From IMG/VR virus record IMGVR_UViG_3300048554_000489, positions 1-21,883 of that record: DNA of 21,883 nucleotides; one strand, given 5' to 3'. Below the pieces are notes generated by a model that saw only the letters and a program-made list of their open reading frames with translations, searched no databases and was not told the origin of the DNA. Each line of letters opens with the position of its first letter. Within the stretch, counting starts at the first letter, position 1. Shown here in pieces: positions 2,385 through 8,945 of this stretch. A program made the position numbers and the translations under genes. This stretch comes from a virus.

Positions 2385-3059
2385 TTATCTAATAGGTGGT
2401 CCGTTAAACCAACAAACAGCACTATATCTTGTACCTCTGGTTACCGGAGTGACTCTATGTCTTATCCAAGATGGAAAAACAACGACTGCACCTTTATCAC
2501 GAAAAGCAGGATTCGTAAATGTCTCTAATTCACTTATACTCGAATCTTGAGGCATTTTTGTTAACCATAAATCACCACCATCATAATCGCTAGGGTCAGA
2601 TAAATTAACGGTTACGGAAATCTTTCTACATAAACCGATATGATTGGGATTTTGTGTTTCAGTAATCGGCATGGCCATACCTTTTTTATCATAGTCTTGT
2701 TGTGTAGCAAAAACTTTTGAGGCATGATGATCGCATTGACCGTCAATATGCCAGTGATAGTGTTGATTTAATCCATACTTTGTAAATTGAATCAGTTCAC
2801 ACTCTCGTACATCTAATCGCCAACCTGCTTGTTCGTTAGCAGACTGTACGAATGGTCTTATACAATCAAAGACTGATTCATCACCCAACCAAGCAATACG
2901 ACTGGCACGAATATCATCATCTTCAGATTTTTTTGAATTTCCTAATTGGTGGGTTGCAACCTGTTCTTGGGCAGCGAGACCTTTTGACATAATATGATCG
3001 ACTTTTTCAGATGATAATCCATGACCACCAGAAAATTGCCAGCAAATGTTTTGAAACAT
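2385..3059 (-). CDS. 2OG-Fe(II) oxygenase (prolyl-4-hydroxylase-like)
   Basis: A 224-residue protein with the 2-oxoglutarate/Fe(II) dioxygenase signature: HWHID gives H104 and D106, the distal ligand is H201 in WIRHRVTPV, and R211 in TRYSAVCWF is the 2OG-binding Arg. YDGGDLWL at about 159-166 is the typical strand before the distal His in PiuC/P4H-like enzymes. The family couples 2OG decarboxylation to hydroxylation of proteins, nucleotides or small molecules; such genes are common in marine T4-like phages, usually with unknown substrate. The gene is the last of the minus-strand cluster. A TATAAATA box ends five bases before its ATG, and GAGGAG lies 13 nt upstream of the ATG. It converges on the cupin gene across a 57-nt gap with no convincing terminator hairpin. 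All catalytic residues are present, so it is probably active. Confidence 0.88.
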   Translation of the reverse strand: MFQNICWQFSGGHGLSSEKVDHIMSKGLAAQEQVATHQLGNSKKSEDDDIRASRIAWLGDESVFDCIRPFVQSANEQAGWRLDVRECELIQFTKYGLNQHYHWHIDGQCDHHASKVFATQQDYDKKGMAMPITETQNPNHIGLCRKISVTVNLSDPSDYDGGDLWLTKMPQDSSISELETFTNPAFRDKGAVVVFPSWIRHRVTPVTRGTRYSAVCWFNGPPIR

Positions 3060-3063
3060 ATAG

Positions 3064-3228
3064 TTATTTATACTCCTCTAATTTCTTCTTTATTTTTAGT
3101 TTATATAATGCTTTTACAATTAAGTATATTGGATAAGGTAAAGGTATTCTATAAGAAGATATACCTCTCACTATTAAGACCCGCCAGCACCAATCACCTT
3201 CACACCGACTGAAACCAACAATACCCAT
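3064..3228 (-). CDS. Possible small protein, 54 codons
   Basis: An open frame directly follows the stop of the membrane peptide gene (TAA immediately followed by ATG at 3228) and ends five bases before the oxygenase start. The product would have a middle stretch PLPYPIYLIVKALYKLKIKK that is hydrophobic then strongly basic, and an odd Cys/Trp-rich N-terminus (CEGDWCW). The odd composition suggests that the first ~18 codons may not be the real frame. In another frame the same DNA reads VSVGVKVIGAGGS and then stops at about 3174, and a GTG just after could start a 35-residue basic version of the C-terminal part. Supported only by position and lack of stops; no family recognised. Confidence 0.3.
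   Translation of the reverse strand: MGIVGFSRCEGDWCWRVLIVRGISSYRIPLPYPIYLIVKALYKLKIKKKLEEYK
3065..3072 (-). promoter_or_regulatory. Late-promoter-like box before the oxygenase gene
   Basis: The minus strand reads TATAAATA, the consensus of T4 late promoters, ending five bases before the oxygenase ATG at 3059. If the T4 spacing applies, transcription would begin at or next to the A of ATG. The box overlaps the stop of the small upstream ORF. In an AT-rich genome the octamer can arise by chance, so position is the main support. Confidence 0.45.
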
Positions 3229-4898: not shown

Positions 4899-4906
4899 TA
4901 TAAATA
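4899..4906 (+). promoter_or_regulatory. Late-promoter box at the head of the structural region
   Basis: TATAAATA, the T4 late-promoter consensus, preceded by the phased A-tract array and followed after five bases by ATG 4912. It is the only such box I see before the tightly packed genes from 4912 to 11520, so it probably drives that whole unit. In T4 these boxes are read by RNA polymerase with gp55 and gp33. Confidence 0.6.
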
Positions 4907-5388: not shown

Positions 5389-5594
5389 ACGGACAATTCA
5401 TTATTAAAATAGGAACTGATCTTTTAGAGTTTTCTAATTACAATGATATTCCTGATAAATTTGATAATGTAATTATTTTCAAACCTGAAGTGCCTGATTC
5501 TCCACATAGTGAAGATGATCACAAACTAATAGAAACTTTCGATTCTAAATTAAAAGAATTGATGAAAAGGGAAACAAATGCCAGCGGTAACTAG
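5385..5594 (+). CDS. Hypothetical protein, 69 residues, TTG start
   Basis: Begins at TTG 5385 in a TTGA overlap with the upstream stop; no ATG occurs in frame until about codon 60, so TTG is the only sensible start. The sequence MNGQFIIKIGTDLLEFSNYN suggests a small beta-alpha fold, followed by an acidic linker (PEVPDSPHSEDDH) and a C-terminal helix. The 3' end overlaps the PAAR gene by 17 nt. Its position between basic peptides and the spike-tip protein suggests a tail or baseplate accessory role. Not recognised beyond that. Confidence 0.62.
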   Translation: MNGQFIIKIGTDLLEFSNYNDIPDKFDNVIIFKPEVPDSPHSEDDHKLIETFDSKLKELMKRETNASGN

Positions 5595-5868
5595 AATAGG
5601 GGATGCGGATGTTGCTCATTGTAGCGGTATGACTCGTGCCCAAGGTTCAAGTAATGTATTTGTAAACGGCATAGCAGTTTCTAGACAAGGTGATAATAAT
5701 ACAGGTCATCTATTACCTGGTGTTCCTTGTCCTTCTCATTCAGCACCGATTGCCTCTGGCAGTTCATCTGTATTTGTAAACGGTAAAGGGTGTGGTCGTG
5801 TTGGTGATGGTATATCTGGTTGTACATCGGTTGCCGCCGGTTCTTCTAATGTATTTGCAGGAGGATAA
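5578..5868 (+). CDS. PAAR-like spike tip protein (T4 gp5.4-like)
   Basis: A 96-residue PAAR protein. Three copies of the motif GSSxVFVNG/GSSNVF (about residues 23-31, 61-69 and 88-94), GD turns at 8-9, 38-39 and 76-77, and His/Cys residues (H14, H44, H54, C81) suited to one Zn site give the family pattern. PAAR proteins form a sharp cone on the end of the central spike of contractile tails and type VI secretion systems. In T4 the equivalent gp5.4 caps the gp5 spike. The gene sits directly before gp25, as in many T4-like structural clusters. ATG 5578 follows AGGG. The length is normal for a phage PAAR without a toxin extension. Confidence 0.9.
   Translation: MPAVTRIGDADVAHCSGMTRAQGSSNVFVNGIAVSRQGDNNTGHLLPGVPCPSHSAPIASGSSSVFVNGKGCGRVGDGISGCTSVAAGSSNVFAGG
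5859..5864 (+). promoter_or_regulatory. Strong ribosome-binding site for the gp25 fusion gene
   Basis: AGGAGG six bases before ATG 5871, inside the last codons of the PAAR gene. It is the closest match to the full Shine-Dalgarno consensus I noticed on the plus strand and fixes the start of the following gene, including its unusual N-terminal domains. Confidence 0.75.
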
Positions 5869-5870
5869 AA

Positions 5871-7067
5871 ATGGCAGCGCCACTATGGACAGTTAGTGAT
5901 AATGATGTATTCACTTCTATAAAGAGTGAACAAAAACTCAATATTAACTTACCCATACAAACAGAAAATGCAACAAATGATTTAGAGTTATTTTTAAATA
6001 CTCATAGATCAGCAAGTAGTACAATCTATGTTGATATGGATAATACACTTGCAGGTTTTAATATTAAACTTGCTCAATTATATGGTGTTGATAATCTACT
6101 AGACGCTAATGTTAGTTTATCTTCTATTGCACAACAAATTACAAACAATAGTCCTGGGTTCTTTTTAAACTTATCTGTATTACCTCAAGTATTTTTAGAT
6201 AATAGTAAAGGTTTATTAGATTTAGTACAATCAATACACGGTAGTTATTCTATATTAACAACTGAAGCGGGTACGACAGGTAATAGTGAAAAAACAACTT
6301 GGGTAAATAATAATCTTTCATCATTCGCCCCGACAGGTAGTGTTAATTTTGCTCAAAATTTTGATAAAGGACCTTTCGGTGGTGCGAATAAGATATTAAT
6401 TGATGATAGTCCTACCTATGTTGAACAATTTAAGGCAGCAGGGGGTCAGGCATTCAGATATATCTACACTACTTTAGTATCAGGTAGTTTACCAGAAGGA
6501 TTAAGTCTCGTTAATAATAGAATAGAAGGAACAGCACCTACTGTAAGTTCAGACACAACTTATACATTCACAATAAGACTAAATTATAATTCAGGATATA
6601 TAGACAGAATATTGAAAATATCTGTGCTTGCCAATATAAATAGAAGTATGACATATGACGCTTCTTCAACAAACAATAGTAAAAGCACTAAGGTCTGGAA
6701 AGACTTAAATCTGAATTTTACTAAAAATCCGGTGACAAATGATATTGTAAAGATAGATGGTGTTAATGCTGTGAAAAGAAGTGTTAGAAATTTAATCAAC
6801 ACAAATCATTATGAAAGATTTTTTCACCCTGAATTAGGATCAGGTATAAGAGAATTGTTATTCGAACCTATGACAGCTCTTACAGAAATATACCTAGCAA
6901 AAAAGATTGAAGAAGTATTAATTAATTATGAACCAAGAGTAAGATTAATTCAAGTTCTTGTCAGAGGAAATGCTGATCAGAACCATTACAATATAATGTT
7001 AGAATTTTATGTAGTTAATCATCCTGAACCGGTACAGATTGATACATTTTTAGAAAGATTAAGATAA
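5871..7067 (+). CDS. 25: Baseplate wedge gp25 fused to Ig-like and HAD phosphatase-like domains
   Basis: A 398-residue protein. The C-terminal part (about 275-398) is the T4 gp25 / GpW-gp25 domain: WKDLNLNFTKNP, VKRSVRNLI, ERFFHPELGSGIRELLFEP and a closing strand. gp25 joins the wedge inner ring and starts sheath assembly; T4 gp25 is only about 132 residues. The N-terminus has PLWTV and a later SGSLPEGLSL...NRIEGTAP (204-222), the pattern of a He_PIG-type Ig domain. Between them, residues 51-198 look like a HAD hydrolase of the 5'(3')-deoxyribonucleotidase kind: DMDNTL (D55, D57, T59), ILTTEAG (T130/T131), EKTTW (K141) and LIDDSP (D178, D179). All four HAD motifs are intact. The gene has a strong AGGAGG, and its stop directly abuts the gp6 start. 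The frame is continuous, so no frameshift explains the fusion. Confidence 0.88.
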   Translation: MAAPLWTVSDNDVFTSIKSEQKLNINLPIQTENATNDLELFLNTHRSASSTIYVDMDNTLAGFNIKLAQLYGVDNLLDANVSLSSIAQQITNNSPGFFLNLSVLPQVFLDNSKGLLDLVQSIHGSYSILTTEAGTTGNSEKTTWVNNNLSSFAPTGSVNFAQNFDKGPFGGANKILIDDSPTYVEQFKAAGGQAFRYIYTTLVSGSLPEGLSLVNNRIEGTAPTVSSDTTYTFTIRLNYNSGYIDRILKISVLANINRSMTYDASSTNNSKSTKVWKDLNLNFTKNPVTNDIVKIDGVNAVKRSVRNLINTNHYERFFHPELGSGIRELLFEPMTALTEIYLAKKIEEVLINYEPRVRLIQVLVRGNADQNHYNIMLEFYVVNHPEPVQIDTFLERLR

Positions 7068-8945
7068 ATGGCAACAACAACTAGTGCAACTGAAACAAAG
7101 AAATTACAGGTTACTGAATTAGACTTTGATCAGATAAAAAATAATTTAAAACAGTTCTTACGAAATCAAACTGAATTTGCTGATTTTGATTTTGAAGGTT
7201 CTGGTATGGCAGTTCTTATTGATTTACTTGCATACAACACACACTATTTAGGATTTAATGCCAACATGGCAGCAAATGAAAGTTTCTTAGACTCTGCTGA
7301 ATTGCGTTCTAGTGTAGTTTCATTAGCAAAGATGTTAGGGTATACTCCTTCATCTGCTATTTCGCCAACTGCTATCATTGATGTAACCCTTACTAATGCT
7401 ACAGGTGCTTCGGTGACAATGCCTGCGGGTACAAAATTTACTTCAACTCTAGACGGTGACTCATACACATATGTTACCAATTCTGATTTATCAATTACAC
7501 CTACTGACGGTGTTTATACTTTTTCAAATGTAAACATATATGAAGGTACTAGAGTCACTTTTGAATATACGATTGATAATACAAATGAAGAGCAAAGATA
7601 TGTTATACCTAATAACAATGTTGATATAACAACTTTAGGTGTATTAGTTCAAAATTCAGTTTCAGATACAACAAGTTTTACATATACAAAAGCAAGTTCT
7701 CAAGTAGGAGTAACCTCAACAAGTAAAGTTTATTTTTGTCAAGAGGTTGAAGATGGTCAATTTGAAATATATTTTGGTGATGGTGTTACCGGATTTAAAC
7801 CATCTGATGGTAATATTATAAAACTAACTTATATTGTAACCAATAAAAACGCTTCAAATGGTGCAAACACATTTACACCTTCGGGAACGATAGGTGGGTT
7901 TTCATCAACAACAAAAACAATTTCAAAATCTTCTGGTGGTACAAACGCTGAAACTATCGCTTCTGTTAAACTAAATGCACCTTTACAATTTTCTGCTCAA
8001 GATAGGGCGGTCACTGCTGCTGATTATAAAACACTAGTGAAAAAAATATATCCTGCCGCAAGTGCTATTCAAGTATGGGGTGGTGAAGATAATTCTGTAC
8101 CTGCATATGGTCGAGTTTATATATCTGTTAAAGCAAAAGACGGAACAACAATTACAAGTGCTGATAAAGCAAGTATTCAAACACAACTAGAAGATTTTGC
8201 TGTCGCTTCAGTTAGACCAGTAATTACTGATCCTGAAACAACTTTTATTACTTTAAAAACTACATTCAAATATGATAGTAATTCAACGGTTGAGGATGCT
8301 ACAGCACTTGCAAGTAAAATACAAACTGTTATTTCAAATTATAGTGATGACAACTTAGATAATTTTGTAGGTGTGTTTAGACATTCTGCATTGACAGGAT
8401 TGATTGATAATGTGGACAATTCTATATTAAGTAATATAACAACTGTTCAAATGTATCAATTGTTTAAACCTATAACAACTTCTTTAGTATCACAAGCATA
8501 TACAATAGGATTTAATAATGCAATTTATAATCCTCATACCGGACATAATTCAGGTGCTGGAGTTATTCAGTCAACAGGATTTTATTTAAATACTGATACA
8601 ACTACTGAATATTTTTTTAATGATGATGGTAGTGGTAATATTCGATTGTATCATTTAGTATCAGGTGTTAAAACATATGACAATAATACTTGGGGTACTG
8701 TTAATTATCTTACAGGTGAAATTAAAATTGCTTCTGCAATTATAAATTCTATTTCAAATGTAGATGGTGTCGCTTCAACTTCGATACGAGTTACCGTAAA
8801 ACCTAGTTCAAATGATGTTGCACCAGTAAGAGGACAAATTTTAAGTATTGATATATCAAACTCTTCAATTACTGGTCAGGTTGATACGATTGCGTCTGGT
8901 TCTAGTTCATCTGGAGTAGGATACACAACAACAACATCATACTAA
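7068..8945 (+). CDS. 6: Baseplate wedge protein gp6
   Basis: A 625-residue protein close in length to T4 gp6 (660). The N-terminus has FDQIKNNLKQFLRNQTEF and then LIDLLAYNTHYLGFNANMAA with NESFLDSAELRSSVVSLAK, a pattern typical of gp6 and related baseplate J proteins. A BaseplateJ-like core follows at about residues 300-360 (AQDRAVTAADYKTLV, IQVWGGED, YGRVYISVK). In T4, gp6 dimers form the continuous inner ring of the wedges and bind gp25, gp53 and gp7. The ATG follows the gp25 stop with no gap, so expression of the two is coupled. The C-terminal ~120 residues are Ser/Thr/Asn-rich, normal for marine relatives. No damage seen. Confidence 0.92.
   Translation: MATTTSATETKKLQVTELDFDQIKNNLKQFLRNQTEFADFDFEGSGMAVLIDLLAYNTHYLGFNANMAANESFLDSAELRSSVVSLAKMLGYTPSSAISPTAIIDVTLTNATGASVTMPAGTKFTSTLDGDSYTYVTNSDLSITPTDGVYTFSNVNIYEGTRVTFEYTIDNTNEEQRYVIPNNNVDITTLGVLVQNSVSDTTSFTYTKASSQVGVTSTSKVYFCQEVEDGQFEIYFGDGVTGFKPSDGNIIKLTYIVTNKNASNGANTFTPSGTIGGFSSTTKTISKSSGGTNAETIASVKLNAPLQFSAQDRAVTAADYKTLVKKIYPAASAIQVWGGEDNSVPAYGRVYISVKAKDGTTITSADKASIQTQLEDFAVASVRPVITDPETTFITLKTTFKYDSNSTVEDATALASKIQTVISNYSDDNLDNFVGVFRHSALTGLIDNVDNSILSNITTVQMYQLFKPITTSLVSQAYTIGFNNAIYNPHTGHNSGAGVIQSTGFYLNTDTTTEYFFNDDGSGNIRLYHLVSGVKTYDNNTWGTVNYLTGEIKIASAIINSISNVDGVASTSIRVTVKPSSNDVAPVRGQILSIDISNSSITGQVDTIASGSSSSGVGYTTTTSY

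Follow-up and report, generated by a model that had tools for sequence, protein, structure and literature searches.

In a family of T4-like marine phages, sequence comparisons place an NT5C-like HAD domain inside an Ig-like domain, and this module is fused in frame to the complete gp25 that follows it. Our IMG/VR scans recovered this fusion in 16 distinct records: the window, by which we mean the whole stretch of DNA that we analysed (21,883 nucleotides, IMG/VR record IMGVR_UViG_3300048554_000489), and 15 further IMG/VR contigs. Because the architecture recurs in 16 records, it is not a product of chance. The domain-insertion fusion is real, conserved and apparently undescribed. A literature search of open-licence PMC papers found no description of a HAD or deoxyribonucleotidase domain in a baseplate or virion protein, a scope that means novelty is not proven.

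The fused gene of the window, its parts and its neighbours are the following, with the evidence for each:

4899..4906, plus strand: upstream TATAAATA, the proposed late promoter for read-through via the PAAR gene into the long form (motif scan)
5578..5868, plus strand: PAAR-repeat spike-tip gene, directly upstream (PF05488, E 3e-10; phrog_281, E 7e-24; synteny)
5859..5864, plus strand: AGGAGG ribosome-binding site of the fused gene, overlapping the end of the PAAR gene (sequence)
5871..7067, plus strand: fused gene with split Ig, HAD and gp25, 398 aa (open frame, domain matches)
5871..6005, plus strand: N-terminal part of the split Ig domain (He_PIG-type), residues 1-45 (joined-flank He_PIG match; AlphaFold model)
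6015..6461, plus strand: NT5C-like HAD, residues 49-197 (phrog_2643; invariant columns; PDB profile matches; model)
6462..6635, plus strand: C-terminal Ig part, residues 198-255 (PF05345, E 2.7e-6; model strands)
6635..6642, plus strand: TATAAATA, a T4-type late-promoter motif within the coding sequence (16/16 fused and 50/50 stand-alone gp25 genes)
6648..7067, plus strand: gp25 (sheath-initiator/wedge) domain with putative ancestral start M260 (alignment of M260 with stand-alone starts; PF04965, phrog_261, T4 gp25)
7068..8945, plus strand: gp6-like baseplate wedge gene, directly downstream (phrog_219, E 4e-185; PF21379, E 1e-24; synteny)

The original prediction of an uninterrupted 398-codon frame at 5871-7067 with an AGGAGG site is confirmed from the sequence. 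The AGGAGG lies six bases upstream of the ATG at 5871, and the fused relatives carry ribosome-binding sites of the AGG(A/T)GG or GGAG type. Elsewhere in the window, two overlapping paralogous ORFs (286-1041 and 1013-1723) look sulfotransferase-like by eye (PVRSGSTWLN and PVRTGSTWLN). An ORF that looks 2OG-Fe(II) oxygenase-like by eye (2385-3059, minus strand) has its own TATAAATA and lies on the strand opposite to the baseplate genes.

The C-terminal part of the protein had been predicted to be a gp25 domain, and Pfam, PHROG and PDB matches all agree: PF04965 (E 1e-13, residues 299-381; 51.2 bits with a gathering score of 27.2), phrog_261 (E 7e-43, residues 266-396) and T4 gp25 itself (5iv5_T, 132 aa; E 2e-10, residues 275-389). 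With the Pfam match above its gathering score and the PAAR and gp6-like genes as neighbours, residues 266-398 are by homology a complete gp25. The fused protein shares with the sheath initiator of T4 and other contractile tails (PF04965; 5iv5, 9f4a) a complete gp25, the invariant E-P-R (E354-R356) and the gene order PAAR-gp25-gp6. These are the neighbours that gp25 usually has in this group of phages, and every fused contig of sufficient length keeps the order. In contrast to the fused protein, T4 gp25 and nearly all of the marine relatives sampled have only about 132-150 aa, with neither Ig nor HAD: among the matches listed, 79 of the 80 related IMG/VR gp25 loci are stand-alone genes of about 138-150 residues without the extension. 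We therefore reject the idea that extensions are a general trait of gp25.

The HAD domain matches phrog_2643 ('5'-3' deoxyribonucleotidase', E 3e-10, residues 49-195) and contains all the residues that had been named as catalytic (D55, D57, T130, T131, K141, D178 and D179). We aligned 40 HAD sequences with identities as low as 29%; 10 are fused to gp25, and the others come from phage proteins of other kinds. Fourteen columns of the alignment are invariant, among them D55, D57, K141, K166, D178 and D179, and every sequence has either Ser or Thr at positions 130 and 131. All four HAD motifs (DxD, S/T, K and DD) are present, and the aspartates do not vary freely among the homologues. A profile search of the PDB with this alignment returned only 5'(3')-deoxyribonucleotidases, including the human and mouse enzymes, and one designed-protein entry (3bwv, E 6e-7; 4mum, E 2.7e-6; 2jao, E 5e-5). 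Other members of the alignment match Pfam NT5C (PF06941) with E-values down to 1e-10. The window HAD shares with the NT5C family (3bwv, 4mum; phrog_2643) the HAD fold and the motifs DxD, S/T, K...W, K and DD in the same order. The known members are free enzymes, whereas the window HAD is inserted in the Ig domain of a tail protein and reaches 13.9-14.7 bits, below the PF06941 gathering score of 24.8. Hence, we call it NT5C-like, not NT5C.

The predicted structure agrees with the sequence matches. An AlphaFold model of residues 1-260, made with the 40-HAD alignment, has a pLDDT of 90.9 and a pTM of 0.88 and consists of a HAD and an Ig domain, the HAD with a Rossmann-like fold. A non-HAD fold of the N-terminal region is thus contradicted by the model. 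For the full protein with nine close relatives the pLDDT was 37, and that model was discarded. In a Foldseek search of the PDB a HAD hydrolase comes out on top with a probability of 1.00 but an E-value of only 3e-3. In a viral library, Foldseek finds HAD matches (E down to 3e-8), phage deoxyribonucleotidases (E down to 1e-7) and, as a separate set of matches, Ig domains of phages, which superpose at about 2-3 A.

It had also been proposed that the HAD splits a He_PIG-like Ig domain. In the intact protein, He_PIG (PF05345) matches only residues 196-243 after the HAD (profile positions 38-85; 28.2 bits with a gathering score of 24). If the flanks are joined in silico (the N-terminal 39 residues and the protein from Y197 onwards), the match covers profile positions 12-85 with 36.0 bits, and the joined-flank version of a fused relative (L005; L numbers are our labels for loci) reaches 38.3 bits. 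The C half alone scores 31.8 bits. Five scrambled N halves, made by hand and not exact permutations, yield 32.4-33.9 bits, so that the joined flank is 2-4 bits higher and the sequence lends modest support to the N half. A tblastn search with the joined flanks crosses the junction into continuous Ig domains of HTVC022P and HTVC200P. In the model, strands 13-18 and 22-26 precede the HAD and strands 199-205, 211-214, 217-221, 229-239 and 242-253 follow it. The insertion is therefore most likely located between Ig strands B and C, and the N-terminal strands would pack in the Ig domain. The joined-flank match and the confident model together support the split. The He_PIG Ig domains of phage tail proteins (HTVC022P, HTVC200P, Atu_ph07) are similar in sequence and in predicted strands across the joined flanks. 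Those domains are continuous, whereas the window Ig has an enzyme-like domain in a loop, probably B-C. The Atu_ph07 match (residues 128-253) was considered as a HAD in another Ig protein and rejected; it is an Ig match only.

The fused relatives are 66-94% identical to the window over the overlapping parts of the queries. In all 15 other contigs the frame is uninterrupted over the part covered, with no internal stops, and dN/dS of the HAD part is 0.10-0.22. That all records are metagenomic fragments speaks for an assembly artefact, a chance frame or a decaying pseudogene. But the same architecture in 16 separate contigs, a dN/dS well below 1 and the absence of stops reject this explanation, whose probability we regard as negligible. 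Among the cultured phages in INPHARED none carries the fusion, and no record there covers 80% of the protein. A scan of genome contigs returned only one distant match, in a Spirochaetia MAG, and hence gives no host clue.

The two modules of the gene appear to differ in their history. Between L003 and L020 the C-terminal half of gp25 is near-identical (pS 0.02), and the HAD has diverged (pS 0.43-0.59). Synonymous divergence between the window and L020 follows the reverse pattern: pS is 0.30-0.36 for the HAD and 0.56-0.64 for gp25. Because synonymous divergence is opposite in the two modules, it seems that recombination has exchanged the HAD module and gp25 separately from each other. In the L020 lineage, a different PAAR-like protein (L020:5739-5999) takes the place of the window PAAR (5578-5868) upstream of the fused gp25.

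The fusion joint can be located precisely. M260-TYDASSTNNSK aligns with the N-terminus of stand-alone gp25 (MPNYDASSTNNSKR and similar). Judged by this alignment, M260 is the old gp25 start, and the Ig-HAD module was added precisely in front of it. Just upstream of M260 lies TATAAATA, the motif documented as a late promoter in T4 and KVP40 (in cyanophage S-PM2 it is NATAAATA; PMC2984593). As in T4-type late promoters (PMC2984593), this exact motif is found at start codons throughout the window. The difference is that one window copy lies inside a longer ORF, upstream of an internal start.

TATAAATA occurs six times in the window, each time 5-18 nt upstream of an ATG. It is found 5-16 nt upstream of the ATG in all 50 stand-alone gp25 genes inspected and, within the coding sequence, 5 nt upstream of the M260 codon in all 16 fused genes. 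Every one of these sites has the position of a T4-type late promoter. An upstream site is also present in L002, L004, L020, L023 and L025. When the runs of bases that are identical in nine fused genes are ranked by length, TATAAATAG comes fifth, with HAD motifs I and IV in first and third place. If the residues N-I-N-R are recoded at random according to local codon use, TATAAATA appears at the joint in 20% of cases, so that its retention alone is only suggestive. For the S-I-N-S lineage, where the flanking residues are Ser, the value from these codon frequencies is about 2.6%. The internal ATG at 6648 has no Shine-Dalgarno sequence at normal spacing. We consider a functional internal late promoter likely but unproven. 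Since the motif is present in every fused gene and in every stand-alone gene inspected, the fused gene probably makes both Ig-HAD-gp25 and plain gp25. A plain product weakens the earlier claim that each virion carries about six HAD copies: the HAD may still be displayed on the baseplate, but the number of long forms would then not be fixed at six.

The spacing between TATAAATA and the start codon is short at several places in the window. At 3065-3072 (minus strand), 4899, 6635 and 11524, only 5-6 nt separate the motif from the start codon, with no Shine-Dalgarno sequence between, and late mRNAs that start there may have almost no leader. Several stand-alone gp25 genes show this spacing as well.

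To explain the arrangement, we propose a gene with two products. Read-through from the upstream late promoter (TATAAATA at 4899) would yield the 398-aa Ig-HAD-gp25 from its own AGGAGG start. The internal TATAAATA and the ATG at 6648 would yield a plain gp25 of 139 aa. In T4, gp25 initiates the sheath from a position deep in the inner baseplate; the long form would thus carry its Ig-HAD head on the baseplate. Such a deep position counts against the proposal, as a 260-residue N-terminal module would need room there. The gp25 part would anchor the long form there, beside the sheath, and some or all gp25 positions would then display a phosphatase head. The head would be an active phosphomonoesterase that most likely dephosphorylates small phosphate esters such as nucleotides, either on the host surface or while the phage enters. 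Deoxynucleotides are mainly intracellular, and a surface substrate is therefore a guess. For the proposal as a whole, with two products, a gp25-anchored long form and a phosphatase head on the baseplate, we see an even chance.

In an alternative scenario, that of the original prediction, only the long form is made. The Ig-HAD module would then occupy every gp25 position, and the internal TATAAATA-ATG would be a functionless remnant inherited from the stand-alone gene. Each record has a single gp25 gene, the ribosome-binding site of the 398-aa form is good, and the motif could persist simply through the conserved I256-N257 (the 20% per sequence from codon use). However, the exact motif is retained in 16 of 16 genes even though the L003/L020/L206 lineage has different residues on both sides of it, and every other TATAAATA in the window is at a start codon. 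We consider this scenario unlikely, although it is the most serious competitor of the two-product gene.

The function of the HAD could also differ from the one that we propose. It could be an intracellular nucleotidase that recycles dNMPs as the free phage enzymes do, its attachment to gp25 being incidental. The nearest annotated relatives are indeed free phage 5'-3' deoxyribonucleotidases, which are counted as metabolic genes, and free copies exist in other phages. But the domain is attached to an assembly protein, lies within an Ig domain of a type that is characteristic of phage tails and is encoded at a late-gene position, and a relative is embedded in a second virion-block protein as well. 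An intracellular role is in our view improbable. We regard it as quite improbable, too, that the HAD is a folded spacer or a ligand-binding domain without catalysis. N58 and G62 do deviate from the NT5C consensus D-x-D-G-V-L-A-D-F, yet D55, D57, K141, K166, D178 and D179 are invariant in the 40 sequences, which include a separate virion lineage, and the domain is under purifying selection. Invariant catalytic residues and purifying selection also disfavour the structural relic that the original prediction offered as an alternative.

That separate lineage is found in a different type of phage. A related HAD, 35-41% identical to that of the window, lies inside a different virion-block protein of about 330-345 aa (L125, L136, L159, L169 and others), an architecture present in 32 of the 36 loci inspected. 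In HTVC023P-type pelagiphages, L125:2012-3022 (336 aa) and about 31 similar loci among L126-L182 contain the embedded NT5C-like HAD, and the gene sits between a 248-aa gene and an SU10-adaptor-like gene. The first 65-135 residues of the carrier match proteins of HTVC023P, HTVC027P and phage 023Pt_psg01 with up to 61% identity; these homologues have only 145-290 residues and no HAD. The HAD is embedded in what appears to be a small beta domain. As in the gp25 fusion, then, a protein of the structural region has a HAD of this family within such a domain. The differences are that the carrier is unrelated (phrog_28581), the phage is podovirus-type and the cultured homologues are without HAD. Two unrelated phage types thus have related HADs within proteins of the structural region. 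The gp25-fused and the podovirus-type HADs may or may not be sisters (support 81/48). A third setting is seen in L028, L029, L030, L181, L183, L187 and L191, where the HAD is near the N-terminal part of proteins of 300-540 aa; some of these proteins end in a KGKSRPGRVKRSGASCKGSVSELRRKAKK-type tail.

The second carrier suggests that the HAD is passed among virion proteins across phage families, which agrees with the cross-family transfers reported for pelagiphages (PMC9599517). More tentatively, the NT5C-like HAD could be a plug-in virion enzyme of pelagic phages, placed in beta-domain loops of structural proteins that are unrelated to each other, in myovirus as well as podovirus lineages, with the nested late promoter providing bare and enzyme-bearing sheath initiators and hence mixed baseplates. 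We think that this broader picture is possible but rather doubtful.

Where phage tails carry enzymes, these are as a rule lysozymes or polysaccharide depolymerases. If the sheath initiator does bear a conserved phosphatase, this would point to a chemical step, so far undescribed, on the cell surface or in the course of entry; the relatives of these phages include phages of abundant marine bacterioplankton. If functional, the nested promoter would allow one gene to provide two forms of a baseplate subunit.
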